64,000 bases of DNA from the NCBI GenBank assembly GCA_029204225.1, contig CM055103.1, positions 7,644,866 through 7,708,865 of the forward strand. The letters are read 5' to 3'. Each line of letters opens with the position of its first letter. Position 1 is the first letter of the stretch. This DNA is from Diphasiastrum complanatum. Its lineage: Eukaryota; Streptophyta; Lycopodiopsida; Lycopodiales; Lycopodiaceae. Position numbers and translations under genes: made by a program. Below, piece after piece: positions 4,149 through 62,172 of this stretch. Below the pieces are notes generated by a model. It was not told the origin of the DNA. It saw only the letters and a list, made by a program, of their open reading frames with translations, and did no database searches.

Positions 4149-4150
4149 CA

Positions 4151-10890: not shown

Positions 10891-10892
10891 CA

Positions 10893-12136: not shown

Positions 12137-12141
12137 GTTCC

Positions 12142-12606: not shown

Positions 12607-12636
12607 GTAAAGGAGAGAGAGGACCTTCTCTAAGAA

Positions 12637-38089: not shown

Positions 38090-38211
<122 letters not shown>

Positions 38212-39947
38212 ATTAGGGAAAATATGGGCTCAAAATGGGCCCTTTAAGAAATTTTGCTTTAGAGAGAGGTTACGTAGAGAGAGAATGCAAACCGGTAACT
38301 TCTGGTCATTGTTTTCCGAGTTTTCGCCTTGCCCGACGTTTAACTAGTATGGTTAGCTTCAGACAATAGTTAGTTAAGCATGAGATGTAATAACTTCTCT
38401 TCATGCTCGTTCCAAAATTCGGGACTAGAGCTTTAAGACTGAAAATCTTGGTGTGCTCAATGCAAAAATTGAAGCGGGAGTAGCAAAACTTTTGAAATCA
38501 CTGTATGCTTATAGTGAAATATGATGCGGGACGATTTTTCAATGTGACATAAACATTACAAAAGTAAGGTATGCTAGATCTATTCATGTTGATTTACTGT
38601 AGTTTAAAGCATTTACGGATTGTAGCTTTTAACAATGGCAATGTTCCATTTGCATGTTGCTCTTCCTATGGAATGCACTCCAATTATTAAGTAAAATTCA
38701 AAAGTTGTAGAGAATGATGCTGCAATAGTTAGAGAATTGAGAATGAATAATCATATGAATATAGATTTGTGGGTGGATGGATCAATTTATCCTAATGATC
38801 CAGCTACCAATTTGTGAACAGATTTTAAGTCTGTAACTCATCTTCTCAGATTTGTATGTGAAGGAAATAGCGGATAGCTTGGACATTGTCAAAGGTTGCG
38901 TGATATTGGAATGCATAGCATATCTTGTCTTAATCAGCAATTACAGTTTGCTAATCAACAATTGCAACGTGCAAATCAGCAATTGCTTCATTATATACAC
39001 ACTAGTACTGAAAACAATGCACTCAAGAACGCTATGTCAGAGTTGAAGGCTACAGTTACTACTCTTTGGGGATCAAACCAAGAAATGTTAGAATCCATGG
39101 AAAAGTTGTGATCCGAGAGTTTAAAATCTGTTGTTGATATAAAAGTTATCAAAAAGACAATGATGAAGACAAAAAGAAAGAGAGTACCGATGAAGAATAT
39201 TGATGACTTATCTACACATAGCGGCAATTAGAAAAAAAGAATTTGAGCATTCAAGTATGTTTATTAAACATAATTTGAGATTCATATGTTTGTTGCAGAT
39301 CAAGTTTGGTGGCAAAGAACTATTTACAGATCGTTCATGCATTGGATCATCTTTAAGTCATGTTTTACCAAGAAAGTCAGCAAAGGAAATGATGAAAAAT
39401 GCTCGGTTTGAAAAAATGAAAAATGAAATTGCAGAGACTGTTTTGATTATGGTTCAATCATTCTTGGATGCAAATGTGATACAAGGTGCATGTGATGTTT
39501 CTGGAATTAGCAAAAATGCTTATTCTGCTTTTTTTAAAATAGTTTAAGATGATTTTTCCCAAGTGATGCTGAAGAAAACTTATCTTCCTCGTCCATATTG
39601 GGTAAGATTAGCAAGAAATTATTATAATGACAGAATGTTCAAAGTAGTTGGCCAACCACTTCATACAACCTACAAATCAGAATATGGTGAGCTCAATTAC
39701 AACGATTGCAATAACATTTTCCTTGATATTAAAAATGTTCTAAAATACATTATTCGATTCTATAAACTAGACAAACATCAAGTAAATGGAAAGATCACTA
39801 TTGTAATAAAATTGGATGAATTTAACCATCAAAGGTCAAAAGTTGGAACGAGTGAGTGTCACTTTGAAGAACAAAATTTCAAATACAGATGATCGAACGT
39901 TTAGTGTTCAATCGGAAAATCACATATGGTCGTTGGCGGCATTCCAG

Positions 39948-40042
39948 GTATACATTACAATTTTCATTTAGATTATCGTTATTAACATTTTATATCTTGC
40001 CAGTTTTTATTGACATGTCATGCATTACTTGCTTTTCTACAG
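39948..40042 (+). other. Probable 95-bp intron in ORF1
   Basis: GTATAC at the 5' side and TTTTCTACAG at the 3' side bound an AT-rich segment. Joining its flanks keeps one reading frame (SLAAFQ then VLKENH), which supports a real, formerly spliced gene. Confidence 0.6.
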
Positions 40043-40143
40043 GTCTTAAAAGAGAACCATAAAATACTTTCATGAATATTTTCAAGAACAAATTATGGCG
40101 AGATTATAAAGAGACATTTGGAGGGTGAGAAATTTACAGTTGA

Positions 40144-40239
40144 AAACCATGGAAGTTTTCAGATTCAATAGCACAAAACCATGGAAGTTTTCAGATTCAA
40201 TAGCACAAAACCATGGAAGTTTTCAGATTCAATAGCACC
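40144..40239. repeat. Three tandem 32-bp units in ORF1
   Basis: The unit CCATGGAAGTTTTCAGATTC...AGCAC recurs at 40147, 40179 and 40211 with a period of 32 bp, which shifts the reading frame. Confidence 0.95.
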
Positions 40240-40662
40240 TTGCAGGGGATTTGAAAACATTAAAATGTATGTATAATGTCTCTCATGGGGCAACATCAAA
40301 GCATCCATGTCTTTATTGCATGAAGGATTGCTACAATATGAATTTGAGATGATCAACAAACACTAGAGAAGCTGAAGATCCAAATATGAAAAGTGTTCTG
40401 CCAATTCCATTAAAAATGTTCACATATGCACATTGCATGTTGAGGTTCGTATTATTGAGAAACTTATTTGGCATATTCTACAAGCATGGAATAATAAACC
40501 GGAGTCTGTGGCTAAAGCATCAATTAGGAGGTTGGTATGTAGTTCTGTTGAATGCAGGACTACATAAAGGGAATGTCACGATTGAAAAAAGTGACAGACT
40601 CTCTGGGAAAAAAGGAAACGTTCCTAATAAGCCATCAATTGGAGGTGCTAAAGCAAGAACAT

Positions 40663-41259
40663 TCGCCATTGCAGATGATCTTTTTGTAGTCTCATTGGGT
40701 GTATAACCCAATATTTTAATTGCCAAATCCCTTTTCACAAAAATTATTTTATATGTTCCTCTTGCATACTTATGGCCTCCTAAACAAACTAATAATGATT
40801 TGATGGCCATAATGACAGTGGTTGCATATGGATTACAAGATGAATGATATATACAAATCTCATTATTTTGAAAGTTTTTCAAATAATGAGATAGAGACAC
40901 ATCCTTTCTCCCGGCTGATACACCTCGGACGCCTCCATGTCTCATACCAAAGGCATCTATTTCAATAGCATCCTGTAAATGAGTAAAGAAAATAAATTTA
41001 GAATGATACATAGCACTACAAATTCATATTTTAACACAGTGTTTGAAATAAGAAAATTGAACAATATCAATACCAATATAAGATCTATGTACCAGATCAT
41101 AATCATCGTATTCAACGACGTTTGCTCTGCTAATGTCATATTCTCCAATGGCCTCTACATTTTCGAAGGGGATATATCGAGTCCTTGGGGAATTTTCTTT
41201 TTTGGAATTCCAAAAATTCCTCCTTTGTAGACAAAGCTTTTTCATAGGCTTTAGATTTG
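40663..41259 (-). pseudogene. C-terminal part of leftward coding sequence of unknown function (ORF2)
   Basis: I do not recognise this product. On the minus strand two blocks are readable: 41259-41037 (with NVEAIGEYDISRANVVEYDD) and, after a short AT-rich gap ending in TTTACAG at about 40981, 40980-40706 (FGMRHGGVRGVSAGRKDVSL, then ATTVIMAIKSLLVCLGGHKY). The gap has intron-like borders. The 5' part of the same reading lies at 44970-45784 on the far side of LTR element G, which split it. The 3' end meets ORF1 tail to tail near 40665-40705. Confidence 0.4.
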
Positions 41260-42281
<1,022 letters not shown>

Positions 42282-42282
42282 G

Positions 42283-42300
42283 TGGCGTCGTTGCCGGGGA
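42283..42300 (+). other. Primer-binding site of element G (Asp tRNA)
   Basis: TGGCGTCGTTGCCGGGGA, one base after the LTR end, differs at one position from the complement of the plant Asp-tRNA 3' end. Confidence 0.85.
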
Positions 42301-43020
42301 GCGCCACACACTCGCCTCACCGCATAGTTTTTCTTGCACTCTCTTCTTCTCTCTTTCTCTTTTCTTCTTCCTCACCACTTTTTTTTCACCTAATACTCAG
42401 ATTTTGTGGGTAGATTAGGGTGGTTTAGTGTTAGATTTGTCAATTTTTATGCTTTTTTGTTTTGAATGTACTGAAGTATTAGTTTTTTGAATGAACTCTC
42501 GTCTCGCCGCATGACACTTTTCCCCATTCTTTCTTTCTTGCTATCTCTCTAGGCTCTCTTTCTCTTTTTCACCATTTTTCCACCAAAAATCGAATTTTTT
42601 TGAGAGAGTTTAGTGTGGTCGAGGGGTTAGTTGTGCATTTTTGTTCCGTGATTTCTTTTGTATGTATGTGCTTCCATAAATCCAAAAAAAAACCTATAAA
42701 AATTCAAAAAACATGAAAAATCTGTCTTGGGCGAAAAAATTAGGCGGGAAAACGGGTTGGAGGCCATAACTTTTAGAACTGTCTAAACTAACCTTTGCAG
42801 AGCCTTCTGAAGTTCCATCTTAGTCTCACTAAGACAAGGACACAGGATTCTCTGCAAGCGTTAGTTCCTAGCCATTTTTTCAAAATAGCCAAAAAAAACT
42901 AATAAAAAAAGAAACTCTAAAAATAAAAAAAGAACCTAAGCCTCGCTGGTGAGTGACTCTATCTTTCAGATAGCCTTCTCCCACGACTGCGACGGTTCTA
43001 TTCCCTTAAAACACCAGATT

Positions 43021-43800
43021 ATGAAACGAGTGAGGAAGACGACAATCTGGCAAAAGTCCCAAAGTACGCAACCCTCGGGCAAACAAGTAAAACCATCACA
43101 GAAGATAGAGATGGTAGAATCCATCACCTCAATGGTAACTAAGGAAGTCAAGAAATTGGCAACCGACGAAGTCCAGCGGATTTTACCAAGCCTCTTGGCG
43201 CAATCAATGCAAAGAATTCTTAGTGATGGATTACAAAGGGGCCTAATGTCAACGGAGCGACGAGAAGACAATCTAGCACAAGATCCAAGGAAAAGTGCAA
43301 TCACGCTGCCTTCAACGGGGAAGTGCAATGACCAAGAGAAGATTAAAGTTGATGATTGCCTCTCAACGAACAAGATTCAACCAAAGTCTAATTGTTCCAC
43401 AATTCAACAGACCCCCAAATCAATGCCAATTCGGGGTATATCCATTCTTCAAAGGCCAAATCCAGAAAATCCAAGCCCAAATAGGCCTCAAGTACAGCAA
43501 GCACCAGTGCCTACAATGACAAAGCCTTGTCCTCAATCTATGATATTGACTGCTGAGGAAAGTCGTCAGGTTATGGCATACTTTGAATACCTGGACAGAC
43601 AAGAGCATCAAGCAAGCATGTCATATCCACATTATGAATTGGGAAAGTCTATGACATTGGGACCAGTTGCGCCGATCTACGAGAATCCACTATATCAGCA
43701 AGATTTATCTTGGGATCCTTCGATGGAATGCCTCGACTACCCAATTGTCAATGAACAAGGTTACCTGGAATGGCCACCAGACACTTATGGGTATTATTGA
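43021..43800 (+). CDS. Single ORF of LTR element G, function unknown
   Basis: I do not recognise this protein of about 259 residues. The first in-frame ATG is at 43021; the frame stays open upstream to at least 42949. Residues about 25-80 are rich in Lys, Glu and Leu with a helical pattern (SMVTKEVKKLATDEVQRILP). The middle is Pro/Asn/Gln-rich (about 120-185), and the C-terminus is rich in Tyr, Pro and Trp, ending YGYY. There are no zinc knuckles, no protease DSG and no RT motifs. The frame is intact despite about 5% LTR divergence, which hints that the protein was under selection until recently or was lucky. A Gag-like role in packaging is possible but unsupported. Confidence 0.6.
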   Translation: MKRVRKTTIWQKSQSTQPSGKQVKPSQKIEMVESITSMVTKEVKKLATDEVQRILPSLLAQSMQRILSDGLQRGLMSTERREDNLAQDPRKSAITLPSTGKCNDQEKIKVDDCLSTNKIQPKSNCSTIQQTPKSMPIRGISILQRPNPENPSPNRPQVQQAPVPTMTKPCPQSMILTAEESRQVMAYFEYLDRQEHQASMSYPHYELGKSMTLGPVAPIYENPLYQQDLSWDPSMECLDYPIVNEQGYLEWPPDTYGYY

Positions 43801-43989
43801 AAATCTAGCAAGTCCAAGTTCTTGCTGATCACCATCATCCAATAAAGCCTCAGGTTTAAGTAAGCGAATACTATCCACGTTTTTCCTGAAGCATCCATGT
43901 CCCAGCAATAAAAGAACCGACAGTAGCGTCCCTCCATGACAGTTGCAGCCTAGTGTCGAGGAACTGGCACTACTTTGGGTCGAGGACCC

Positions 43990-44964
<975 letters not shown>

Positions 44965-44969
44965 ATTTT

Positions 44970-45784
44970 TCAATCATGGCCTCCAATGCCTCATTGCCAG
45001 ATTTCCAATTTCCATCTTTATCATAAACTATCTCACTTTCAAGGTCATCATATGTGTAATCAACAATGTTAGAAATTCTGATAAATTTTGTGCAAAAATA
45101 AAGAGGATTTCATCCTCTCTCAAATTCAAAATATCTTCTATATCATCAAATAAAATATAACTCTCATTATGTATAAAATATAAGGAAACATCGAGTAAAA
45201 TTAATTGATTAACAGGAGATGCAGATGGAAGAGAATCAGAGAGGATTATAGAACGAGATAGAGTTTTCTGATAATCTGAAGCCATAGATGCTTCAGACCG
45301 AATATCAGTATCTGCATCATCTACATCAACTAGAGCAGATCATATGCTTCAATCAATGGAACAGTAGAAGATTCAACAGACTCATCATCTGGAATTTCAG
45401 CAGACATGTAAAAGACAAAAGCCATTTTCTTGATTAGAAGACGACATATTCTTTTGTGGATACCACAATATATATTTCTTTTGAAATGGTCATGCAGGTT
45501 AGAGTACTTTCTATTGTGTTTATGCTTAGAGGATGGTTGAAAATGGACAAGGTCCTAAAAATGAACGACACAAAATTATCTATATCCTGAATAGGAGTAC
45601 TAATAATCTGAGAAAAATTATCAAGAAAAGAAATTAAATTATAACGATTCTCATAAACTAGCTTATCGATATCGAAGGGAGCAAAAAAAATACTAGAAAA
45701 ATACTCTAATTTCTTAGATGGAATGTCACTGGCATTCAAAAAATCCAAAAGTTTGTTATTTGAGGACATGGAGGAACTAGCCAT
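44970..45784 (-). pseudogene. N-terminal part of leftward coding sequence of unknown function (ORF2)
   Basis: On the minus strand a frame opens with ATG at 45784 (MASSSMSSNNKLLDFLNASD) and is readable to about 45437. It continues after frameshifts as an acidic segment near 45330-45420 (SAEIPDDESVESSTVP), a block at 45285-45028 and IVYDKDGNWKSGNEALEAMI up to the edge of element G at 44970. No domain is recognised. Its start codon lies 294 bp from the divergent start of the H3-like gene, which suggests a shared promoter region. Frameshifts and the insertion show it is dead. Confidence 0.45.
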
Positions 45785-46078
45785 ATTGAACCTGATATTG
45801 GTTCAACGCGACTGAATGATTTTGGTCGAGGACTAAACAACAGTGTGCACGTTGATCCGATATCTGCGAGCATACATAAGAAGAGGCTGATATCGCTTCA
45901 GCGCGCCTGAACGAATCTGACCGTGCACTGTACGTGAAGGCGCGCGTCGATTCGATATCGCGAGAAAGAAAGAAAACAAAATGATGAGAGAGTCCAGAAT
46001 AAAAGATCACGAAATATCTGACCTGACTTCTGATCCTGAGTTCTCCTTCTTTGCGTGCTGATCCGATATTGGATAGTA
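45785..46078. promoter_or_regulatory. Divergent intergenic region with repeated GATCCGATATC-like motifs
   Basis: Only 294 bp separate the ATG of the leftward frame (45784) from that of the rightward H3-like gene (46079). The interval is locally GC-rich and holds four or five related motifs (GTTGATCCGATATC, GCTGATATCG, GTCGATTCGATATC, GCTGATCCGATATT) plus CGCTTCAGCGCG. A shared bidirectional promoter is an inference. No TATA position is certain. Confidence 0.45.
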
Positions 46079-46418
46079 ATGGCACGGACTAAGCAAACAA
46101 CACGAATCCACCCTGGTGGAATCCCAATCACAAGAGGGGGTCAGGGAAATGCACCACCATTGCCTCGTCCACCACCACCTCCTCCTAGACCAAGGGGCAG
46201 ACGAAGAGACCCTCCCTAGCTGAAGGATATTCAAAAGCCACTGAAGACCAATAATCTTCTGATTATGAAAGCTCACATACAAAGATCCATCACACAGGTT
46301 ACAAGAAGTCTATCTGCAAATGTGAGATGGATTGTAACGGCAATTGAGATGCTACACACTACATATGAGGATTTTCAAGTGAAATTTTTTTCAGATACTG
46401 TTGTTGCAGCTATCCATG
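46079..46418 (+). pseudogene. Histone H3-like gene, 5' part (tail and most of the histone fold)
   Basis: The frame starts MARTKQTTR, so the mature tail keeps A1 R2 T3 K4 Q5 T6 and R8 of histone H3 and also GG at 12-13. K9, S10, T11 and K14 are replaced (I, H, P, I). A Pro/Arg-rich stretch follows. An in-frame TAG stands at 46217-46219, just before the position of H3 L48. The same frame then aligns without gaps to the H3 fold: LKDI for LREI, NNLLI for ELLI, then VRW, FFSD and AIH. RW, FSD and, in the second part, KDF recall plant CENH3, but loop 1 has canonical H3 length. No intron is seen, so a retrocopy, viral or transposon origin is possible. It is split at 46418 by element N. Confidence 0.85.
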
Positions 46419-47366
46419 TGTTAGCGGATTCCATAGAATCCCTAGATGCCGAGCCAAGTTGAAGACACAAAGTATCTCTCACCCATGACCAAGGAGGTCT
46501 CAGAAGGAGATGAGCAGAAGAAGCTGAGAGCCGAGCATGAGAGCCGAGGATTACTAGCTAGGATTGCAGTTATTTTCTATGTGAGCCCACATGGTGTATC
46601 CCAGAGAAGGAACGACCATGTAGGAGCTAGTAATGTTCCTAGGCAATGTAAATAAGTGTAGACATGCTTAAATAATTTAGAGTGAGCAACCTTTTGATGG
46701 TGACCTCTAGTGGAAGGGCTATTTACACTTGTAATTTCTAAATTAGTGGAATTACCACTTAAGCTCCACATGGGCAGCCCTCTTGCTTATTTAAGGACCC
46801 CCCTCTCGTGTGAGAGAGCTTTTATTGTATTGTCAACTCTCTTGATTGAATAAAGAAGATTCTCCACGAGTTCTTGGCAATTGAGAAGCTCCTTGTTCAT
46901 GGCTATCTTCTTGAGTGAAATTCCTATAAACATGTTTTGATTTCTTGTTGTAAATGTGGATTAATTAGACTTCTTGCTCACTTTCTTGCAAATGTGGAGT
47001 GTAGATGTGGATTAATTTTCTCGTTTCTTGATTTTGTAGTTTCAACATGCAGGTAAACTATATAGGCTGAGATTGTAAATCTGATCTTGCATTTTTACTA
47101 ACAATCATGTCCTTGATTGTTCTTGGGTATTCCAAGCATCAAGAAATGGGTGTTTCTTGATTCTTGGGTTGCTAGAATGTTGTTAGAAAGTTAGCTTTCT
47201 TGATTCTTGTTTCTTGTTGTGTAGCTTAACTTTGTTATTGAATTGTTTCTTGAATTTTTAGGATAGTTTGGTAGATAGATTTGTAGACTTGCTCTTTGTC
47301 CCAGAACGTTAATCTGTACTTGAGCCAGGATTGGTTACATGGCTTGTAAATGCATGTAGCTGAGTG
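46419..47366 (+). repeat. 5' LTR of element N (3' end deleted)
   Basis: Starts TGTTAGCGGATTCC. It contains a likely TATA region (CTTATTTAAGG near 46788) and a polyadenylation signal (AATAAAG near 46850). It matches 50997-50530 (reverse) and then 57220-57684. It stops where gag coding sequence begins, so the last 230 bp or so of the LTR, the primer site and the start of gag have been deleted. Confidence 0.85.
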
Positions 47367-48450
47367 AAATCCCTCGATGGATAAGACGTGAACTTCGTTC
47401 CAATGATGAATACACATCATTGAAACAAGCCATGTTTGATGTCATTCAGGAAGAGGACGAGGGATCAAATGTCGATGAGCCACGTGAACGGAGAGCACAT
47501 CGTGCTGTCCAAGAAGCTCGACCAAATGAGAAAACATGAGAACAATTATGGAAAACACAAATGGAGTTGCTTAACCAGTAACACCAGCAACAGATGGAAA
47601 AACTCATGAAAGAGTTTCAAAACACTCTTAAGTCTATCCAGAGTTTGATGTCGGGTCAGTTACCCACTGGCCAAATCCACCATAGACGAGAGAATACATG
47701 GTGCCCTCACTATCGAGGTGCACACACTGGCAATGAGTGCCCATCATACCAACTGGTCCTAGATACTTCATTGATCAAATGCGATATCTGCGAATTTATG
47801 GGACATAACTCACTCTATTGCTATTATAACCTGAGGAACCAGCCTCACAACCAGTCAGGGGTACATTATCAACCTGATCGGCAACAGTTTGTTTCACAAA
47901 ACCAACACCAACACTACCCACCATGAAACAACCAAGTTCATATACAAGAGTTGCTCAGATAATCTAGACATGCAACAACAACTGGCACTCTTAGGACCAC
48001 CTCCAAGGGGACAACCTGATCTAGGAGCCCAAAAACATAGACACCCTCAAGAATCTGCACAAACACATCTCCTACGATCACTCATATCATCACGATACAA
48101 CACTCCCATCTACTAGTTCTCAACCATATCAAACCGACAACTCATGCTCGTGCAAACAGGATGAGTATCCCACACCACCGAAAAATCCAGCACAGCTAGC
48201 CATCCAAGATTGTTATACTATTACCATAGGACCAAAGAACAACCGTTGTTTTATTTGTGGTGAAACTGGCCACTTCATGGTTGACTGTAAAGTTAAGAAC
48301 CAATACCATGTGAAGTGTCAAGACTGTGTTCTCAAACACAGTTTCAAAGACTATCCTAAACAACCTAAGAGGATCCTTCTAGCATGTCATATATCATCCG
48401 AACCTGTTAGAGTTCTCACTAGAGCACAACGCCAACACCAAGAACAATAG
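47367..48450 (+). pseudogene. Gag C-terminal half of element N
   Basis: Begins in mid-capsid with PRWIRRELRSNDEY, the counterpart of the KRIKRELKCYNEY segment in element F gag. A damaged first knuckle (WCPHYRGAHTGNEC, second Cys lost) follows, then an intact one (CDICEFMGHNSLYC near 47780) and, in another frame, CFICGETGHFMVDC near 48247. Several stops and frame changes are present. The family relation to element F is clear, but the two are well diverged. Confidence 0.8.
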
Positions 48451-48570
48451 CAAAACATTGCTAAATCAGCTGACCATCACGGGAGCCACCTGACAACTTC
48501 CACATTACCCAAAGACTACCCAGAACCAAAAGTGGAACAAAGGTAGTACAAAGAATTTAGAGATGAATTT

Positions 48571-50256
48571 TTGCGAGAGGAAGAAAATACGAAAAGTTTG
48601 TTATCCGCTCAAATCTCTGAAAAAGAGCAATCCCTACAGGGACTTGAAGTATTTTCTGACCTCCTGCAAGCTCAACTCACCATGCCATTCCATAGCGCGA
48701 TAAAATATTTCACCAGGATTCAACGCTATATCCATCATAGTTTTCAGCTGCCTACTATCCCTGACGACCAGTGGAAAACAGAAGAGATTCCTGAAATTCC
48801 TCAGATTCCTATGAATCTGCTGAATATAGGTGTTGCTAAGGAGACTAGCATTACCTTGCCTCTATCCTATAAAGACTATCTTGCAGTATCCGCTATCCTT
48901 GATAGCAAATCAGACGTACATATAATGGCTTTGTCATTGGCAAAATCATGGGGCTTCCATACCCTCGATCAACCACGCTACAAACTTCGCATGGCTGATC
49001 AACGAGTTACAGACCCTGTTGTTCATTTATCAAATATCAATGTTCGCATTGCAGGTGTCAAATTTGTAATCGATTGTGTCATTTTAGAATTACCAGATGA
49101 AGCAAATACTTAAAAACTCCTTCTTGGTACACCCTGGCTCCAGATGGCAGGCATTGTCCAAGATTGGAAATGATTAACAAAATTACCTTTGGCAATCACG
49201 ACAAACGAGTCCCGGTTGACTCAATTGGCCATGTCAAGCCCGCTAATTTTTTTTATGATTGGTCATCAACAACTTATGGTGAAACAGATAGTGTCTCGAT
49301 CCAACCAAAAGGCCACTATACGAGATCCATGGACATAATAAATTGGGGTCAAACACTAGCCACTATGGACTGTGCTGATTCCAACTGATGTCCTATCGAA
49401 ACCGCTGTAGAAGATGTGGATATTCTATCGTCACCTGCACACATTGATACAACCATCATCCCACTTATAATGATTGACTCGATTCCTATAGCTTGGTGCC
49501 CAGGAGAACCTAGCGTCTCTACCACCCATGTTTCGGAAGAAGGTATTCTTTCCATGGATGATGTTGAAATGACGGATGAACATGTACTCCTTTATCTAGA
49601 TGCCCAATGTTATCTGCCAAAATAAATTTCTCGGGAGATCAAGTCACTAGGGCCATTGGCTCACGTCCAACTGACATCCAAAGTACCCAACACGCAAACA
49701 TATAGGCCCAAGCCCAAAGTACACACATGGGACGTGTATCCAGATGAAGTCTGAAATACCATCGATGACGACATGATAAGTGAGGCAACAACATCGCCCA
49801 CTCAAAAACCTCCAAAACCTCGGTTACAAAAAACTAAAATTATTGATACAAAATTAACCGAATGTCAGAAACAGATGCGTGAGAAGCTTAAACAACCGAT
49901 TAAGCCCATCTAAAGAGACAGAAACCAAACAATCAAACCAAGCTTCTACGTCTGGTAGTACCTCCACTCAAATGATTCCCAAAGTTCCCGAAAACTTTGT
50001 GGAACCACCCTTTGATCTCCCACAAAAGTTTAAAGATTTCACATTGGATGACATTGTTATCCAGATACCACAGCCACAGCAGGAACCTACACCAAGTTCC
50101 AACTCCTTTGAAGGACCTGCTAAAACAATTTTGTTAAACCTTAAAGATCCTGACAAGGAGATGGGTCAAATAGTTCATGTTGGTGCACACCTTTTCTCAA
50201 AACAACTTTCTGATCTGGAAACTTTACTTCGCAAATACAAGGATGTATTTGCATGA
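48571..50256 (+). pseudogene. Protease and linker region of element N
   Basis: A frame at 48571-49113 carries the protease region, where AILDSKSDVHIM stands at the active site, so the DSG triad motif is lost. LLGTPWL follows near 49120. Further short frames (49164-49388, 49416-49625, 49879-50256) match the acidic linker seen in element F, ending with the RYKDVFA-type segment just before RT. Frameshifts and stops make it non-functional. Confidence 0.72.
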
Positions 50257-50329
50257 AACTATATAGAAATGAAAGAAATCGCGCCTGAAGTAGCAGTCCA
50301 TACAATTCCTTTAGAAGACAACGCTAAGC

Positions 50330-50528
50330 TTGTTAGCGGCTAAACCTTACAGATGTAACCTTGTCTATCGCGAGAGAATCAATGAAGATATTAAGAAATT
50401 GATGGATGTTGGTTTCATATATGAAGTCCAACATACTGATTGGGTATCACCCATTGTGGTTGTACCCAAGAAAAACGGCAAACTTTGTATCTGTGTTGAT
50501 CTTAAAAACCTTAATGCGGTTACAAGAG
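50330..50528 (+). pseudogene. Reverse transcriptase N-terminal part of element N (before the inversion)
   Basis: The frame encodes AKPYRCNLVYRERINEDI, then WVSPIVVVPKKNGKLCICVD and LKNLNAVTR, the fingers region of gypsy RT. At about 50529 it runs into reversed LTR sequence. The remainder starts at about 57219 on the minus strand. Confidence 0.85.
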
Positions 50529-50529
50529 C

Positions 50530-50997
50530 TTTTCAATTACCAAGAACTCGTGGAGGGTCTTCTTTATTCAATCAAGAGAGTTGACAATACAATAAAAGCT
50601 CTCTCACGCGAGAGGGGGGTCCTAAATAAGCAAGAGGGCTGTCCATGTGGAGCCTAAGTGGTAATTCCACTAATTTAGAAACTACAAGTGGAAATAGCCC
50701 TTCCACTAGAGGTCACAATCAAAAGGTGGCTCACTCTAAATTATTTTTAGGGGTCTACACTTATTTACATTGCCTAGGAACATTACTAGCACCTACATGG
50801 TCGTTCCTTCTCTGGGATACACCATGTAGGCTCACATAGAAAATAATTGTAATCCTAGCTAGTAATCTTCGGCTCTCATGCTTGGCTCTCAACTTCTTCA
50901 GCTCATCTCCTTCTGAGACCTCCTCAGTCATGGGTGAGAGATACTTTGTGTCTTTAGCTTGGCTTGGCATCTGGGGATTCTCTAGAATCCACTAACA
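50530..50997 (-). repeat. First part of the 3' LTR of element N, inverted
   Basis: Minus-strand sequence starting TGTTAGTGGATTC at 50997 matches 46419 onward for about 465 bp. A purine-rich run (ATTAGGGGTAGATAA) precedes it on the minus strand at 51012-50998, as expected of a polypurine tract. It ends at the inversion breakpoint. Confidence 0.88.
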
Positions 50998-51149
50998 TTA
51001 TCTACCCCTAATCTGTTGCAGGACCCACTGCAACACATGTCAGGTGATGTCGTTCCGCTTGGCACTTGAAAAAGCGTGAATCTTCGTTCGCTTTCGTAAA
51101 ACTAGGTGCTTATTATCCGCAAAACTGTTCCGCTCTCAATGGCCGCTAC

Positions 51150-51425
51150 ATTCCAGTCCGATTTGAGTTCTGGCCTCCAGTTGAGATTTGAGTGGTGGCC
51201 TCCGGTTGAGATTTGACTGGGTGGCTTCGATCGAGAAGTGACTGGATGACTTCAGTTGAGATCGGACAGAAGTGCTCCGGTTGAGATCTGACAGAAATCC
51301 GTCGGTTGAGATATGAGTGGAAACCCACCGATTGAGATCTCAGTGAAAACCCGCCGGTTGAGATCTGATCATTTTCTTCGGTCGAGATTTGGTAGAAACC
51401 CATTGGTCGAGATTTGACAGAAGTC
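51150..51425 (-). repeat. Minisatellite of about 25-32-bp units before the 3' LTR of N
   Basis: At least nine irregular units with the core GGTYGAGATYTGACWG recur between 51150 and 51425. They lie in the 3' untranslated part of the element, between the pol stop (about 51803) and the polypurine tract. Confidence 0.85.
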
Positions 51426-51856
51426 CTATATGGAGGAATGGAGCTGTGTGATGCAAGTGAAAAACTCCAAGAGGAAAAATATGACTGTGGCTCAAATTAG
51501 AAGTTCTTATTGGAAAGAAGTATCTCAGTGATTGGATGTATGCTTAATTGGGAATATTGAGATATCATATAAACATAAATGAGATAGGCCTAAAGTGTGA
51601 CAAATCTTGTCCTTATGATGTAGTCTATCATTTGTTGACCTAGAACACGCATGACAAATGTGTATTTATAGAGAAAAAAGATGCACATAAAGTAAATATA
51701 TACATGCATGAAATATAAAACAAGAAAAGGATACAAAAATAGGCATACCAAAAGACAATAACCAAACAAGAAAAAAATGTAAAATATTTACCAAAAAATT
51801 AGGGTTAAGTGGGGTCAACAAAAAATAGCTCCTCGTAATACCGCCATAGACGACCA
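51426..51856 (-). pseudogene. End of pol and 3' untranslated region of element N
   Basis: Next to the copia insertion, the minus strand continues the integrase C-terminus (RYYEELFFVDPT) and stops near 51803. The rest is AT-rich untranslated sequence up to the minisatellite. It joins 54894 onward if element L is removed. Confidence 0.75.
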
Positions 51857-52841
51857 TGTTGGATTTACTCCTTGTACTCTCCTAAGTCCCATTTTTAATA
51901 TGCCTCCATTCTTGCTGCATATTTACTAACGTTGTCACGCAGCCTGCATATTTACACGCAAATTTGCACAGACGAATAAAAGGCGAAAGAATCGCGACAT
52001 TGTGTTTTTACATAGGTTATGGTGACAGGCGAAAAGGGGACACTATCCTACAGAATGCCGAAGGTGTCCTAAAAGCTAAGGCACCCTGTAAATCTAATCC
52101 TAAGGCTACTCGTAAGAAGTGACGCACTTTTTGCATCATCACTAATGTTCACCTCAGTACTGACTGACGTTGCACCCTTCTCACGCTCACCCCATGCAAC
52201 TGCGCTAATAGATTGGACAACTACTGCAGTCACCCACGATCTCTTACAAATAGCACATCCACTCTGTACTTTCACATCTGCACACCTGTAATATTATGTA
52301 TATATTGGATACCATCTGCGTATTCCATAGTGAGAGAAGAAGAGACTAAGAGAAGAGGTTTCATTTCTTATTATAGACAAAATAAGCTTCATAGGGCACG
52401 TGGTTTCATCCGCTATTGTATTGTGCTCTACTGCATTTAATATGTATACATGATATACTTAATCTGATACAGCTCTTTGTTCTACATTCTGATGTGTTAA
52501 TATTGCTATGCTTGTTCTTCATTTTGTCTGATCTTTCTAGTTGTTCTTTCTGGTAATAGACGATTAACTTTTAGTCTTGTCTTTCGCAAATCATTTGCGA
52601 CATATAATTTGTCTTGCAATTTGCGACAAATTATTCATCTAGCGCTTCATCCATTAAATGTTTGGCTGCGAATGATTGTGATTCCTATCACTAAAGTTCT
52701 GTTCATTCTGATAGGCGTAGTCATGCTTACGGAGAGAGACGTTTAACTCATTTCGCTGCGCACAAACATTTTCTGTTCAAGTTCGTGTCTCGTTCGTTTC
52801 TCATTCGTGTTTGTCATTTATTCTTCCCCTCTCTCCCAACA
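51857..52841 (+). repeat. 5' LTR of element L
   Basis: 985 bp, followed at once by TGGTATCAGAGC. It shares nearly all its sequence with 53934-54888 apart from small indels. Confidence 0.93.
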
Positions 52842-52853
52842 TGGTATCAGAGC
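52842..52853 (+). other. Primer-binding site of element L (initiator Met tRNA)
   Basis: TGGTATCAGAGC directly after the LTR end, with no spacer. Confidence 0.9.
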
Positions 52854-52992
52854 TATTTTCATAGCTTGATAAGCTTCCACAATACAAGACTCTACTAGCC
52901 GATAGAGTAATTGTTTTCTTGTTTTGTAAATATCAAATTTTCATACTTAAGTCACTAATAGTTTCTCCTATCACTTAGACTAATTCTTCCAC

Positions 52993-53926
52993 ATGGATTC
53001 CCAAGGGAAAGCCAGTCCTATCATGGACAAGCTTGATGGAGCCAATTACCATCTGTGAAAATTTAAGATGAAAACTATACTAATGGCAAAAGAATTATAC
53101 GACGTTGTTACAGGTGCAGAAGGAAAACCCGAAGCAGATGACGTAGCAATCGCCAAATGGAAGCTGAAGGACAGAAAAGCTTTCGCGCTAGCTCACTTCT
53201 GTCTTGGAATTCAAATCCACAGAGATAGAGCAAATCGACTGATTTACATCACTCAACAAAGATATCTTCACAATGTTCTTAACAAATACAATTTGATGAA
53301 TTGTAAATTAGCTCACTCACTAATGGATCCAGGCCTGCATTTGTCAAAGAACCAATGTCCCCAGACCAAGCAAGAAGAGGAGCAGATGAGAGAATATCCG
53401 TATCGATCGATACTTGGATCTCTCATGTACGTAGTGGTTTGTACAAGTCTAGATATCTCTTTTGCTTTAAATCGTAAATCCACATCTGGATTCACATTCT
53501 TCTTCAACGCGGTCCTATTTCGTGGAACAATCGTAAGAAAACAGTCGTAAGAAAACCTCTATCGCACTTTCTTCTACTGAAGCAGAATACGTTGTTGCTT
53601 CTCAATCTATTAAGGAAGCATTTTAGTTGAGAAATTTGCTGTCAAACATTAATCTGTATCAATACAGTCCTACAATTTTGTTTTGTGATAACCAAAATGC
53701 TATTGCCTTATCGGCCAACCCTAGATTTCATTCTAGGAGTAAGCACATTGAGATCAGATATCACTACATCAGAGGCAAGGTTCTTGACAGGGAGGTAGGC
53801 TTCACGTACTGCAGAACGCACGACATGATTGTAGACATTTTCACGAAAGCACTCAGTGTTAATGCACACGACAAATTTTGTGCATTGCTCAGTCTGAAGA
53901 TCAAGGCATTCACGGATCCAGATTAA
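52993..53926 (+). pseudogene. Gag start fused to RT-RNase H end of copia element L
   Basis: The ATG at 52993 opens a copia gag N-terminus (MDSQGKASPIMDKLDGANYH, then a TGA where the usual W stands, then KFKM). Near 53195 gag jumps in frame into the RT C-terminal segment FCLGIQIHRDR and continues through LAHSLMDPGLHLSK to SLMYVVVCTSLDISFAL. There a second deletion joins it to RKSTSGFTFF. After a frameshift, the RNase H end follows: ALSSTEAEYVVA, FCDNQNAIAL, RSKHIEIRYHYI and IFTKALS. Zinc knuckle, protease, integrase and the RT palm with YVDD are missing, so the product could not be enzymatic. Confidence 0.88.
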
Positions 53927-53933
53927 GGGGGGG

Positions 53934-54888
53934 TGTTGGATTTACTCCTCCTACTCTCCTAAATCCCATTTTTAATCTGCCTCCATTCTTGCTGCATATT
54001 TACTAGCGTTGTCACGCAAACTGCATATTTACACGCAAATTTGCACAGATGAATAAAAGGTGAAAGAATCGCGACACTGTATTTTTACACAGGTTAACAC
54101 TATCCTACAAAATGCCGAAGGTGCCCTAAAAGCTAAGGCACCCTGTAAATCTAATCCTAAGGCTACTCGTAAGAAGGATGCACTTTTTGCATCATCACCA
54201 ACATTCACCTCAGTACTGACTGACGTCGCACCCTTCTCACGCTCACCCCATGCAGCTGCGCTAACAGATTGGACAACTACTGCAGTCACCCACGATCTCT
54301 TACAGACAGCACATCCACTCTATACTTTCACATTTGCACACCTGTTATATTATGTATATATTGGATACCATCTGCGTATTCCATAGTGAGAGAAGAAGAG
54401 ACTAAGAGAGAGGTTTCATTCCTCATTACAGGCAAAATAAGCTTCGTAGGGCACGCGGTTTCGTCCGCTATTGTATTGTGCTCTACTGCATTATTAATAT
54501 GTATACATGATATACTTAATCTGATACAACTCTTTGTTCTACATTCCAATTTGTCTTAATATTGCTATGCTTGTTCTTCATTTTGTCTGATCTTTCTAGT
54601 TTTTCTTTCTGTTAATAGATGATTAACTTTTAGTCTTGTCTTTTGCGAATCATTTGTGACAAATTATTCATCTAGCACTTCTTCTATTAAATGTTTGGCT
54701 GCGTAATCTAGAATGACTGTGATTCCTATCACTAAAGTTCTATTCATTCTGATAGGCGTAGTCATGCTTAAGGAGAGAGATGTTTAACTCATTCCGCTGC
54801 ACACGAACAATTTTTGTTCGAGTTCGTTTCTTGTTTGAGTTCGTTTCTTGTTTGTGTTCGTCATTTATTCTTCCCCTCTCTCCCAACA
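53934..54888 (+). repeat. 3' LTR of element L
   Basis: 955 bp, preceded by the G-rich purine tract and followed by target duplication GACCA. Confidence 0.93.
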
Positions 54889-54893
54889 GACCA

Positions 54894-57219
54894 CCGTTGA
54901 CGACAGTGTCTAGGAGTATTCCGTCAAGTGTTTGCAGCTGGACTGCACCATTAGGAAAGATTTTATTGATAACATACGGGCCCTCACTTTGGAATTTCAA
55001 TTTTTCAGTGCTTCTTCGATGTATAAAGAAGCACCTGGTGACCTAAGTGTAAATCCTTGTTGCGTAAGTGGCGGTCATGCCAGGCCTTTTGGCGTTGTTT
55101 GTTAACCAGTTGTGCGTGGTAAGATATGAGTCTTGTCTCACATAACTGGGCTAACGTAAATAGCCTTGTCTTGACTTGTTGTGCAATTGTAGCTTTCTCA
55201 CAGAGATCAGTAGAAAAGAATTCCATGGCTCTTAGAGAAGGTACTAAGAATTCTATAGGAATTATCGCCTCTTGACCATACACTAGATGGAATGGGGTAT
55301 AACCCACCCAGTGGCTTCCTTCGGGATGGTGCGGTAAGCCCAGATAGCTGAGAAGAGTTTCGTCTCCCAATCAGAACAACTGGTTTCAACTATCTTTGTC
55401 AATATTTTAAATATCGTCTTGTTAGTTGATTCGGCCTGGCCATTACATCTAGGATAGTATGGTGTACTCTTTCGGTGAACTACAAGGTAATGGCGTAGCA
55501 AATTATCAATGAAAACATTTAAAAAGTGTTTGTCGTGATCACTAACTAGTTCAATAGGACAACCAAAACATGTAATAATGTTTTCATAAAGAAAATGCGC
55601 TACATTCTTTGCGTTGGCATCCTTTGTTGCCCGAGCCTCAACCCATTTAGTGGCATAATCTATGGCTATTAGGATATAACGGGCTTGGGTGTGTTTCGCT
55701 GCTGGGCTGATTGGTCCAACAAAGTCAATTTCCCATTTATGGAAGGCTTCGCCTTCTATAATGGGAGTCAAGAGTGTGAAGTCTGCTTTCGTATGTTTCT
55801 TGGCTCGCTAACAAACATCACATGTTTTAATGATAGCAAATGTGTCTTTAAATAATGATGGCCACCACAAACTTGCTCGAAGGATAATCTTAGTTGTCGC
55901 TTTAGCAGAGAAGTGACCACCGCCAATGCCCTCATGAGCCTGAGATATGATAGGCCGTATCTCAGATTCATAAGCGCATCATCGGATAATAGCGTCAATG
56001 CTCCTTTTGTAAAGTTGTCCTGCTATTAGCTGAAAGGGCATTGCTTTAAGCAAAAATTTCTTTTTTGCAACCGTATTCAGGCCTTCTTTGAGTCTGTCTG
56101 TTGTTAAAAACTAAGTGATTTCCTCAGCCCATAAGGGTGTAACATCAATCTGAAAAAGACATGCATCAAGAAGATCATCGTTGGCTGGTGCAGTTGCTTT
56201 TTCAGCATTAGGGAGTCGTGAAAGGTGATCCGCCATGAAATGCTGGGTTCCTTTCCGAACGATTGCGTGGAAATTAAATTTCTCTAATATCAACAGCCAT
56301 CGAGCTATGCGTCCCATTTTACAGGATTTATCAACAATATATAACAGGGCTTGATGGTCGGTGTAGAAGGCAAAGGTCTGGCCTAGTAAATAATGTCTTA
56401 GTTGTTGAGCAACATAGACCATTGCCAATGCTTCTCGCTTGGTTGTTGTATAGTTTACTTTAGCAGGCACCAATTGCCTGCTCAAGAAACGTATTGGAAA
56501 ATCTTTGTCATACTCGTCCGGTTGTGCAAGAAGACCTCCAATGGCATACTTACTGGCATCAATATGCACATGGAACTCTTTCGTGTAGTCTGGCGAACAG
56601 AGTATGGGTGCCGTGGTAAGGGCTATTTTTAACTCAAAGGCTTTAATGTGTTCTTCGGTCCATCGAGGATCTACCACAACTAAATAAATGACTCGTGCCT
56701 TGCCAGCATAATCGATTATAAAGATGCGATAATAATTTGTGTGACCGAGGAAGATGTAAACTTCTTTCACTCTTGCAGGCAAGGGCATTTCAGCTATTAC
56801 CTTGACCTTTGAAGGGTCGGTAGAAATATCGTCCTTTGAAATTATATGTCCGAGTACTATTCCATGGGTGACCCAGATTTGACACTTGTCAAGGTTTAGT
56901 AAAATTCCAAATCTACGGTGACGAATGAAGATTTTCTCCAGTGCGTAGCCGCTGAGGAATGTACACCCGACAATCCGATGTAACAGGTCTTGGAAGGCCA
57001 GTTGCATGACCCTCTGAAACGTTGAAGGGGCATTGCATGAGCCAAAAGGCATGACATTATAAGCATAAATCCCATTTTCTATTGCAAAGGCCGTTTTATG
57101 TTTATCTTCAAGGGCTATTTGAACAAGAAAATAGTCGCTGAATCCATCCAAGAAGCTAAAAGCTTCAGCTCCTGCCATTTCCTCTAAGATTTGGGTCATT
57201 AAAGACAAAAAAAAATGGT
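54894..57219 (-). pseudogene. RT-RNase H-integrase of gypsy element N (inverted block)
   Basis: Minus-strand order from 57219: RT from KDHFF through FSFLDGF and NAPSTFQRVM. The catalytic YxDD segment is lost, because sequence goes straight from LLHRIVG to RRFGILLNLDKC. RNase H follows with HIDASKYAIGGLL, REALAMVY, YTDHQALL and ADHLSRLP. After a stop at about 56111 comes an H2C2 zinc region (about 55930-55800, damaged), then the integrase core with WEIDFVGP, LVSDHDKHF and NGQAESTNK, giving the DDE residues. A frameshift near 55290 leads to TPFHLVYGQEA and the C-terminal FPNGAVQLQTLDG. Domain order is that of Ty3/gypsy. Loss of YxDD and the stops make it inactive. Confidence 0.9.
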
Positions 57220-57914
57220 CTTTCTGTTCATGGCTATCTTCTTGAGTGAAATTCCTATGTACATGTTCTGATTTCTTGTTATGAATTGGATTAATTAGAT
57301 TTCTTGCTCACTTTCTTGCAATGTGGAATGTAGATGTGGATTAATTTTCTTGTTTTTTGATTTTGTAGTTTCAGCATGCAGGTAAACTATATAGGCTAAG
57401 ATTGTGGATCTGATCTTGCATTTTTACTAACAATCTTGTCCTTGATTGTTCTTGGGTATTCCAAGCATCAAGAAATGGGTGTTTCTTGATTCTTGGGTTG
57501 CTAGAATGTTGTTAGGAAGTTAGCTTTCTTGATTCTTGTAGCTTAACTCTGTTATTGAATTGTTCCCTGAATTCTTAGGATAGTTTGGTAGATAGATTTG
57601 TAGACTTACTCTCTGTACCCGAATGTTAATCTGTACTTGAGCTAGGATTGGTTACATGGCTTGTAAATGCATGTAGCTGAGTGAACGTAACCGTTTCATC
57701 CCATTGACAGGCTGGGAATACACATTGCAAACTAAGAGGCATTTCTGCCTGGAAATCGTTCTAAACAAGAGGACTTAATTGTAAAGAACTGGCTTCTGAA
57801 AATTGGCAGAAACACCTAGTTTCCAGAGCGGTAACCACCTGAGGCGTAACAAAGAAGAAGAGTAAAAGAAGAAAAAAAATCGTATTCACATATTCGGGCT
57901 GGAATCTGTGAACA
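57220..57914 (+). repeat. Second part of the 3' LTR of element N, in original orientation
   Basis: Matches 46893-47366 up to position 57684, then continues 230 bp that the 5' LTR has lost, ending TCTGTGAACA. The target duplication CCATG follows. With 50530-50997 it makes an LTR of about 1.16 kb. Confidence 0.88.
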
Positions 57915-58065
57915 CCATGCCAAGAGGGTGACCATCATGCCCAAGGATTTCAACATTGTGTTCAGGCTACGGAACACATATGACAAATTTGCAAAGTACT
58001 TTAAACCATTTCCTTCCTCTCCTCCAAAACAAGATGCAGAGAAAAGAAAAACAGAGCAATCTTAA
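57915..58065 (+). pseudogene. Histone H3-like gene, 3' part
   Basis: After the duplicated CCATG the frame resumes with AKRVTIMPKD, identical to the H3 segment that follows AIH, and reads FNIVFRLRN where H3 has IQLARRIRG. In place of the usual H3 end there is a basic extension of nearly 30 residues (KYFKPFPSSPPKQDAEKRK) before the TAA at 58063. A Ser/Pro/Lys-rich reading in another frame (SPSSPPKNSSPNKSPPPSKS, to about 58277) might be a lost part of a longer tail. This is the second half of the gene starting at 46079. Identity with H3 here is seen directly; the function of the variant is unknown. Confidence 0.88.
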
Positions 58066-58300
58066 CCATCCCGGCTTGTTTTTCGAGTACAGAGCGAGAA
58101 TGTTTCAAAGAAGATGAGGTCTCATGACCCTCCTAATAAAGTGAGGGATTTTTCAAAGCCATCTCCTTTACATGAGATTCTATTTGCTCGCCTTCTTCTT
58201 CTTCTAAATCTCAATCGCCATCTTCTCCTCCTAAAAATTCCTCTCCTAATAAATCTCCTCCTCCTTCAAAATCTTAGTGTCTTCTGTCATAAAACGTGGG

Positions 58301-59133
58301 GATAACTGGCAGCAGAAGTTCGAAGCTTTGAGCGTAGGCATGTAGGAACGGAAACGCAACAGTTAGCAGCAAAAATATTCAAGAAGAATGATTCATACAA
58401 ATTGCGCAAATGAACAATACAGTAGTGACACAAAAATTGCACTTTGATTAATATCAACAATGAGTACAATGGCTTGAAGTGAGTACAATGGCTTGAAGTA
58501 ATAACTTCAGCTTGATGAGTGTGATAACGCTGGCTACAGATAACTCTGATTGAAAAAGAACACTTACATAGCTTGATTTAGCTTGTATATATATTTACAA
58601 GTGTTGAGAGTCAAATATCCTATAAGCCTTAAATGCCATTTACGCCAGTTCTTGTATATGTACAACGCAGGTAACCGCCCTTGGGATATTTAGAGGTCCA
58701 ACTATTTTTAGGGTTGATGCTAAGTTGGCGACGTCGGTCTGCCACTATTGGAAAAAACCCAAAGGTGCCCTTAGACTGAATGCATGTAAAACCTGAAGGT
58801 GCCCTTAGAGCGAAGACAAAAAAAGGCAAAAAAAGCCGAAGGTAGGAAAAAAGTGAAAAAGCCGAAGGTAGGCCAAAAATGGATTCTAAGGCATTTTGGC
58901 CACTATGTCGCATTTTTCGCGAAAGTGTGAAAAGGCAAAAAAGACAAAAAAAAAAAAAAAAAACAAAAAAAAGAAGAAGTGAAAAAGACGAAGGTGCCTT
59001 ATAAACGGTTAAGGCATAAGAAAATCTCAAAGAGAAAAATGTGAAGGTCCGAAACATGTAGTCGGCCTTCGGTTTTTAAAATGCTCATTACTTGAACGAT
59101 TTTTCTTTAAGACTGAGCATAAGAAATCTAACA
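58301..59133 (-). repeat. Probable 3' LTR of copia element K
   Basis: Starts TGTTAGATTTC on the minus strand directly after the pol stop and a short purine stretch. It contains a TATATATA box near 58594 (minus strand) and A-rich stretches. It has no second copy in the window to prove the far border. Confidence 0.6.
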
Positions 59134-59144
59134 CTAGCCCTTAA

Positions 59145-61096: not shown

Positions 61097-61157
61097 CTAC
61101 TGTTAGTTGATGCCATGCCCCTGACGTGTCGATGCAGTGACTCATCACCCAAAAAGG

Positions 61158-61560
61158 GTTTCCAGCAGAGATGAAGTTGAGAGCCGAGTCTGAGAGCACG
61201 AGAATTATTAGTGTTAGGCTAAATGAATATTTTGTGAGCCCCATGGTAATTCCTGGAAGATGGATAGCCATGTGGGAGCTAGCAATTTAGAATATCTCAA
61301 CTTGAGTTATGTTTTTAATAAAGAGGCCTCCTACTATTAAGTAAGAGGTGGAACTCAAACTATTATAGATTGGGGTTCACTTAGTTGCAAGAGGTGGACT
61401 CCAAAATAAGATACAATTGAGTTCTACAACTCGTGGGTATAAATAAAGGCCTCCACCACAAGTTTCATAGCATGTATTATGTACTGAAATGTTGTTGCTC
61501 TTTAAATTGAAGATTCTACTACTTGCATTCCCTTCCATGCTCCATCTTCATGCATATGGT
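61158..61560 (+). repeat. Diverged LTR fragment related to element N (copy J)
   Basis: From GATGAAGTTGAGAGCCGAG on, it resembles 46509-46890 of the N LTR with many substitutions and indels (shared GAGAGCCGAG, TTTTGTGAGCCC, CATGTGGGAGCTAGCAAT). It has its own TATA-like box (GGGTATAAATAAAGG near 61437). Its 5' end is cut where the copia pol begins. Confidence 0.6.
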
Positions 61561-61622
61561 TTGGGTACTGATGTATGAATGTGTTTGTTGTTGTAATTCT
61601 CTCTTAAGGGTTGGTTTGGGAT

Positions 61623-61919
61623 TAGTATCAGGTAGATGTGCAAGGCTTGGAGGTTGATCCATCTTTCCACTCAGTTTTGATGCTTCTTAGTTATCGGCTC
61701 CCTGAGGAGTTCTTCTTACAACTGTTGAGTGACAATTGTAACAAGCACTTTGTAGGATTCCCATTTGTGTTAGCATCAGGTAGATGTGTAGGACTTGGAG
61801 ATTGATCTACTATTCCACTGATTTTCGATGTTTCTCGGTTTCTGGCTCCCTGAGGAGTTCTTCTTACAACATCTGAGTGACAGTTGTAAGATGTACTTTT
61901 TAGGTTCTGTGATTCTAGT
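61623..61919. repeat. 148-bp tandem duplication
   Basis: ATCAGGTAGATGTG at 61627 recurs at 61775, and GGCTCCCTGAGGAGTTCTTC lies in both units. The copies differ at many positions. Confidence 0.88.
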
Positions 61920-62034
61920 TTAGAGGTTGTGCTGATTTTGTAATTTTAGTAGGAGTAGGCTTAGTTTAATTCTCTGTTCTTGCTTAGATTAGTTTAGCAA
62001 TAATTTGCAGTCTGTAAGAATAACGAAAGAAACG

Positions 62035-62172
62035 AAACAGTTTATAGAATGTAGGAAATTGAGTTCCTGACGGATCCTATATCCAAGATGAGCATCCATT
62101 GTCAATCAAGGATGAAATCAGGTCATAGGTGTGCCACTGACAGGTAGGTACATTACTGTTATACTACAACCA
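62035..62172 (-). repeat. tRNA-Asp-like / SINE-like segment, copy 1 (degenerate)
   Basis: Same segment as at 62985-63118 but with a damaged B box (GATTTCATCC) and a changed A-box region. The body up to CTACATTCTATAAACTG is conserved. Confidence 0.45.

Follow-up and report, generated by a model that had tools for sequence, protein, structure and literature searches.

We analyzed a stretch of 64,000 nucleotides of the Diphasiastrum complanatum genome (contig CM055103.1, positions 7,644,866 to 7,708,865), referred to throughout as the window, in which a histone H3-like gene begins at position 46079. We consider it highly probable (roughly 0.87) that this gene is a dead copy of an H3-like gene belonging to a dispersed, high-copy element, and that this element, here called the H3-carrying element, is mobile. 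The frame from 46079 translates as MARTKQTTRIHPGG... and later as LKDIQKPLKTNNLLI...VRW...FFSDTVVAAIH, and 3′ of an insertion it continues as AKRVTIMPKDFNIVFRLRN... (Table 1). In a tblastn search, residues 1-115 of AtH3.1 matched 46079-46420 (E 3.2e-9) and residues 110-132 matched 57904-57972 (E 2.8e-5), with no further AtH3.1 match in the 64-kb window at E 1. The two fold pieces, when joined, matched the core histone family PF00125 at E 3.1e-15 (56.9 bits; curated cut-off 26.4), the 5′ piece alone reached E 6.7e-7 (30 bits), and the best match of H3 chains in the PDB to the joined reading had an E value of 9.7e-17. Because Pfam, the PDB and the separate H3 matches of both halves all point the same way, the histone feature at 46079 is real, and the frame is a diverged histone H3. 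This bears out the original prediction, made from the letters of the window, of an H3 tip and fold in gapless register across the insertion, and the profile search that it had proposed as a check returned a significant core-histone match.

The finer points of that prediction held fully or in part. The window tail keeps R2, K4, Q5, T6 and R8, and K4 is the sole lysine in its 45 residues, compared with eight lysines in 47 residues of H3; the lysines at 9, 14, 18, 23, 27 and 36 are missing, in agreement with the predicted retention of K4 and replacement of K9 and K14. Loop 1, also as proposed, has no extra residues in the window's family of copies (family W, described below) and is thus of H3 length. 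The frame does match H3 in translation but is interrupted by an in-frame TAG at the junction of tail and fold, which may belong to a splice site. The tail is close to the canonical length but one residue shorter than that of H3, the TAG codon included, and the predicted basic C-terminal extension is present but continues past 58065, with about 250 more residues in related copies.

The near-invariant tail and fold of a canonical H3 are not found in the window copy, which shares 33 of 84 fold residues (about 39%) with AtH3.1 and has one tail lysine. Over the same 84 residues, 35 are identical to AtCENH3 and 33 to fission yeast Cnp1. Profiles built from these references scored the fold at 61.7 bits (H3), 64.0 bits (all CENH3) and 55.1 bits (plant CENH3), and at the 37 sites where AtH3.1 and AtCENH3 differ, the window fold is H3-like at 8 and CENH3-like at 10. 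A single-sequence structure prediction for the 67-residue fold piece gave one long helix and was not used.

Copies, families and termini of the element

A search of the plant's own genome (1.745 Gb, 5176 contigs) with an H3 profile yielded 6325 candidates, 150 of which were scored. Among the matches listed, 13 rows were canonical-H3-like (163.7-165 bits, no stops); the next match scored 109.5 bits and was followed by a long series of diverged places, many of them with frames of more than 300 residues. With the window fold and C-terminal stretch as the query, 150 of the 150 places scored, from 5966 first-look candidates, matched at 74-84% identity. The listed places lie on contigs C1 to C24 and on many small contigs, and copy counts for the H3-like gene are lower bounds. 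The picture of a lone gene changed because of these many diverged H3-like places: a lone CENH3-like pseudogene was overturned by the genome search, and a lone host H3 variant gene was ruled out by the copies together with the gene cassette that they share. The search for uninterrupted paralogues, suggested in the original prediction, found stop-free H3-like frames elsewhere in the genome, the open frames including one of 417 amino acids in locus L009 (family A, described below) and frames of about 330 amino acids in the family B loci L016, L017, L019 and L026. Three partial histone matches (profile positions about 69-122, 83-84 bits; G000:C7:39679211-39679372, C22:33629212-33629370 and C22:33672453-33672611) may represent H3.3 exons or exons of the host CENH3 gene.

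We studied 20 loci picked from the ranked list, most of them for long stop-free frames, together with a further 10 and 4, two places being included twice. Judged by their sequences, the element H3-like loci form three diverged families, W (the window's), A and B. Family W has an ARTKQTAR-like tip, mostly GG, a Pro-rich tail, the fold, a Ser/Pro linker and a C-terminal domain. Family A begins with MARTKQTARDPR, followed by about 300 Ser/Arg-, Gln- and Pro-rich residues with the fold at the C-terminus, and in family B MDRRKQTRRDFF leads into a short tail and then the fold, beyond which lie about 200 further residues. The C-terminal domains of W and B align with each other (BLASTP 6e-7, 22% identity), and the C-terminal domain had 0 matches in the PDB. 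The tip was found in 25 of the 34 loci with a pattern that itself required part of the tip; it is exactly ARTKQTAR in five of eight family A rows and exactly DRRKQTRR (RRKQTRR core) in five of six family B rows. By eye, in-frame stops in the listed copies are mostly TAG, which could reflect C-to-T changes at methylated CHG sites in silenced copies. In L021, a second, weaker H3 match (58.5 bits) lies downstream of the first, with cassette pieces rearranged. Beside the first family A copy of L023, the sequence at 7276-9801 runs the opposite way and is either another copy of that family or an inverted portion of the first.

The three families have a four-gene cassette in common, which consists of a transposase-like gene 1, gene 2, the H3-like gene and gene 4. 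At least one partner gene was present in 23 of 24 loci of about 10 kb and at least two in 20 of 24, with none in reach in L015; these 24 loci represent at most 21 sites, as L013 and L027, and likewise L024 and L025, have identical flanks, and L010 and L012 look like duplicates. The order in W and B is gene 1 (+), gene 2 (-), H3-like gene (+) and gene 4 (-), and in family A the order is the same with gene 2 and the H3-like gene turned. Gene 1 is conserved across all three families (42-64% identity between families), and the corresponding values are 27-47% for gene 2 and 34-52% for gene 4. Among the 13 cassette pieces scanned, there was no Pfam match over the cut-off, and two gene 2 pieces had 0 matches in PHROGs. 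We take gene 1 to be transposase-like by eye, from three conserved acidic sites (LDE; DLKTL, followed by C..C; and QGMEK.H) and from its apparent introns. An LTR (long terminal repeat) retrotransposon as the carrier of the H3 was rejected, since no reverse transcriptase domain was found among the cassette pieces scanned and the reverse transcriptase genes of the window sit in other elements.

The left end, CATTAGGG or nearly so, is common to four W copies (the window, L040, L041 and L042) with unrelated flanks. In L041, where both termini are present, the right end is an imperfect inverted repeat of the left end of about 31 bp; L040 also has inverted termini at both ends, about 10 kb apart, and in these two copies the termini read CATTAG...CTAATG. 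Inverted terminal repeats were therefore found in two W copies, while for families A and B one end each was seen: CATTAGGGCCCTTTTTGG lies at one end of seven A loci with five distinct flanks, and ...CTCTAATG at one end of four B loci with unrelated flanks. Dispersed copies with unrelated flanks are thus present; among the A loci, the flanks were identical within two pairs. The left 290 bp of the window copy (38211-38500) gave matches at 40 of the 40 places scored, including the window itself, from 1741 candidates; these matches show copies and not a boundary, because the query began at the terminus. The original prediction had allowed for a mobile or viral element as the carrier of the histone, and the dispersed relatives, the cassette and the inverted termini in two copies back the mobile part of that proposal. 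We infer that the element is a cut-and-paste DNA transposon and that gene 1 would be its transposase.

Could the element instead belong to a lineage of endogenous DNA viruses, its H3 being of viral origin? Its genes are of unknown origin, some large DNA viruses have a histone gene, and one gene 1 piece had a sub-threshold Pfam match to a baculovirus family (E 0.0019). Against such an origin, which we regard as improbable, stand the short, defined inverted termini and the lack of any capsid, polymerase or helicase among the pieces scanned. Furthermore, four scans of IMG/VR contigs, queried with the fold of the window copy, an alignment of H3 and CENH3, and pieces of gene 1 and gene 2, confirmed no relative, a negative that is weak because the scans had no positive control.

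Selection and phylogenetic placement

The ratio of nonsynonymous to synonymous change (dN/dS), another check suggested at the outset, was calculated pairwise (NG86) over the fold within families and lay between 0.14 and 0.41. Family W gave dN 0.067, dS 0.213 and a ratio of 0.31 (91 pairs, which include a duplicate, as one copy occurs twice in the set of 14, L036 lying within L040); family A gave 0.028, 0.069 and 0.41 (66 pairs), and family B 0.043, 0.304 and 0.14 (28 pairs). Synonymous change between the families and to H3 is at or near saturation. When neutral decay of H3 to the same identity was simulated, the mean was 4.75 stops, with one stop or none in 4.2% of runs. Assuming one indel per 10 substitutions, about 18 indels would arise as well; the compared part of the window gene has one stop and no frameshift. 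From the simulated decay and the within-family ratios together, we conclude that the fold was kept by past selection in the families. The suggested "neofunctionalised H3" fits in this sense, as a protein that diverged while constraint acted on it in the past.

A simple processed H3 pseudogene was ruled out by the decay simulation, the genome copies and the family dN/dS below 1. More broadly, the locus might have been an ordinary H3 or CENH3 gene, or a processed copy, that fell into decay once the LTR element had inserted and had no tie to any mobile element of its own. The H3-like frame is indeed intronless, and its tip and AKRVTIMPKD block are as in H3; however, at least 150 dispersed relatives exist, partner genes accompany 23 of 24 loci, and neutral decay is expected to leave more stops and indels than are seen, which makes this explanation barely credible.

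In a first tree, the window sequence grouped with plant CENH3 at 92/99, a grouping that was not starred, and placement with H3 was not rejected (p 0.317). A tree of 24 rows supported each of W, A, B and canonical H3, and in it the CENH3 references were not one group; neither a single clade of element H3s (p 0.516) nor their union with canonical H3 (p 0.191) was rejected. In the trees, the H3s of the element fall outside the clade of canonical H3, as would be expected of a CENH3-type histone with which the element loads at or near centromeres, inserting there or being kept through division. The W fold also has Trp at position 84, shared with five of the six CENH3 references. By eye, however, families A and B lack this Trp, and loop 1 of W is of H3 length (loop 1 of CENH3 is typically longer than that of H3). 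In addition, the near-equal identity of the fold to H3 (33/84) and AtCENH3 (35/84), the unrejected union with canonical H3 and the spread of the listed matches over contigs C1 to C24, on which centromere positions are unmapped, all weigh against a CENH3-type histone in this role, which we consider unlikely. The "CENH3-like retrocopy" of the original prediction is likewise unsupported as a simple retrocopy.

Several observations weigh against our reading of the locus as a copy from a mobile element that kept its histone under selection. The dN/dS pairs are non-independent and include dead copies and duplicates, and the window differs from its near relative L033 by dN 0.066 and dS 0.072, as decay would give. 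The tips of family W are varied, exact ARTKQTAR being found in one of 11 rows and the rest carrying one or more changes, in some cases stops; these 11 rows represent nine copies, because L033 coincides with L039 and L036 lies inside L040. For retention of the most conserved H3 columns in the window, the result is mixed, with p 0.08 by Fisher's test and p 0.006 by a rank test. Finally, no clear target-site duplication was seen in L040 or L041, and no Pfam match, nor any PDB match of the one gene 1 piece compared, marks gene 1 as a transposase.

Layout and insertions of the window copy

The window copy of the H3-carrying element is made up of 38211-41259, 44965-46418 and 57915-58278 (Table 1). 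Its DNA homology ends at 58278, and no more of the element was detected in 58279-64000 when the DNA was compared with that of L040, L041 and L042. Genes 1 and 2 have broken frames and the H3-like gene has a stop. This copy is dead because of its internal TAG, its frame breaks, the two insertions and the missing right part.

The larger insertion, of 11,496 bp (TGTTAG...GAACA), starts with TG and ends with CA. The predicted split of the H3-like gene by a retrotransposon is confirmed by this LTR element and its CCATG duplications, but the split is incidental and concerns a single dead copy. The integrase, reverse transcriptase and RNase H domains are on the minus strand; by domain order we take the element for a Ty3-type, an ordinary insertion with no role in the histone's story. 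Its LTR parts diverge by Kimura two-parameter (K2P) distances of 0.076 and 0.057, and its pieces fit one inversion, the breakpoint of which restores the LTR junction almost exactly. The LTR element within gene 2 has repeats at K2P 0.037 and a 286-residue frame (42940-43800) without a Pfam match at 1e-3. At 45792-45980, in the interval that separates gene 2 from the H3-like gene lying head to head with it, there are two diverged repeat units of about 95 bp, with a third, weaker copy near the H3-like start codon, and a shared promoter is possible. At the start of the window, positions 1-12609 are densely filled with repeats 0.5-2 kb long, which occur in both orientations and are 93-98% identical; tandem arrays of 112-252 bp lie there as well. 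An Rfam scan of the window gave 0 matches.

Table 1. Features of the H3-carrying element and of the sequences inserted in it, in window coordinates (L numbers denote loci elsewhere in the genome).
Feature	Position	Strand	Basis
Left terminus of the H3-carrying element (CATTAGGG...), within a GA microsatellite	38211..38240	+	Homology onset with L040, L041, L042; flanks unrelated
Gene 1 (transposase-like) pieces and upstream frames, decayed	38211..40664	+	tblastn with L040 and L016 reading frames
Gene 2, part	40664..41259	-	40957-40664 at 95% amino acid identity to L040 3407-3829
LTR element within gene 2; LTRs 41260-42281 and 43990-44964; flanks ATTTG / ATTTT	41260..44964	.	L040 uninterrupted here
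Gene 2, other part (MASSSMSSNNK...), head to head with the H3-like gene, frames broken	44965..45802	-	tblastn with L040 and L016 reading frames
H3-like gene, 5′ piece: H3 tip, Pro/Arg-rich tail, fold to AIH	46079..46418	+	Translation, Pfam, tblastn
In-frame TAG at the tail/fold junction of the H3-like gene	46217..46219	+	Translation
5-bp target duplication CCATG, left	46414..46418	+	Flank comparison
LTR element interrupting the H3-like gene: reverse transcriptase, RNase H, integrase	46419..57914	.	Domains; inversion 50522-57224; nested repeat pair 51857-52841 / 53934-54888
5-bp target duplication CCATG, right	57915..57919	+	Flank comparison
H3-like gene, 3′ piece: fold end, basic SSPPK extension, Ser/Pro-rich linker, partly shifted frame	57915..58278	+	Translation, DNA homology
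Start of other sequence, truncating the H3-carrying element	58279..58800	.	DNA comparison with L040, L041, L042

Possible roles and comparison with known systems

Our first choice of mechanism, proposed tentatively from the sequences, is that of an anti-silencing histone variant. The H3-like protein would pair with host H4 and enter chromatin, where it may be deposited on the DNA of the element as a histone variant showing an H3-like tip. Without lysines 9, 14, 18, 23, 27 and 36, as in the window tail, copies packaged in this way could not carry the usual silencing marks, and they might escape these marks because the variant tail lacks those lysines. The tip and fold would be what a histone needs for loading and reading, and the parts that were lost would be those that held the silencing lysines. 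The long linkers and the C-terminal domain could bind other proteins of the element.

The same linkers are un-histone-like, with about 300 N-terminal residues in A and about 200-250 C-terminal residues in B and W; the C-terminal domain common to W and B is also unlike histones, and the tip is the part of the tail that is still recognisable as H3. These features would suit a protein that is not nucleosomal, either binding DNA as a structural component of the transposition complex or serving as a decoy for proteins that read the H3 tip. The fold, its RVTI-PKD block included, is constrained, however, as expected if H4 pairing persists; we regard such a role as rather doubtful and place it second, ahead of centromere targeting.

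The anti-silencing variant leads to a wider proposal that we hold as possible: the element may represent a previously unnoticed DNA transposon superfamily, in which an H3 variant is a core gene kept through the split into three deeply diverged families and packages the copies in nucleosomes that show an H3K4 tip and are unmarkable at K9 or K27. Such a variant would be the first nucleosomal histone to be encoded by a transposon, and it would work as an anti-silencing device. The literature searched contained no paper on such a gene, no search having been aimed at transposon-encoded histones. If the proposal is true, a mobile element makes its own core histone, which would offer a direct way to ask whether genome parasites edit the nucleosome itself to avoid silencing. 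It would also provide a large natural set of H3 variants in which the tip and fold are kept and the middle is replaced, and it would bear on the origin of divergent H3s and CENH3s. The interest rests on the family of H3-like genes and not on the window copy.

Among the known histones, plant CENH3 (HTR12 type) resembles the element H3 in its diverged fold, its ART-K tip, the RW shared with loop 1 of W and its nearness in the first tree. The element H3 differs from it in its H3-length loop 1 (W), its C-terminal domain, its high copy number and its lack of introns; one report gives seven exons for alpha-CENH3 and four for beta-CENH3 of cereals and nine in Arabidopsis species, and describes canonical H3.1 as intronless (PMC8603533). 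In Picea abies, another study did not find CenH3 (PMC4357034). The lily variants gH3, gcH3 and leH3 are also divergent plant H3s, for which a published tree shows no clear separation from cenH3, but they are expressed in generative cells and are set apart by this description (PMC3380720). PMC8215658, PMC9210943, PMC549713 and PMC4584325 provided general background.

Canonical H3 (H3.1/H3.3) shares with the element gene the ARTKQT-R tip, the histone fold and its register and the HAKRVTIMPKD block. In contrast, the element gene has about 39% identity in the fold, long extensions in related copies, multiple copies within an element and, in the window, a tail without lysine except K4.

Among mobile elements, VANDAL with VANC and the KDZ elements are DNA transposons with extra genes, and they resemble the H3-carrying element in combining a transposase-like gene with accessory genes that may act on chromatin; no DNA transposon of this kind is known to us to have a core histone gene, no literature search having been aimed at the question. 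The histones of large DNA viruses differ in their setting, since the element described here is short, has inverted termini and resides in a nuclear genome, with no relative confirmed on viral contigs, but they offer a clear parallel in that there, too, a parasitic genetic element encodes a core histone.

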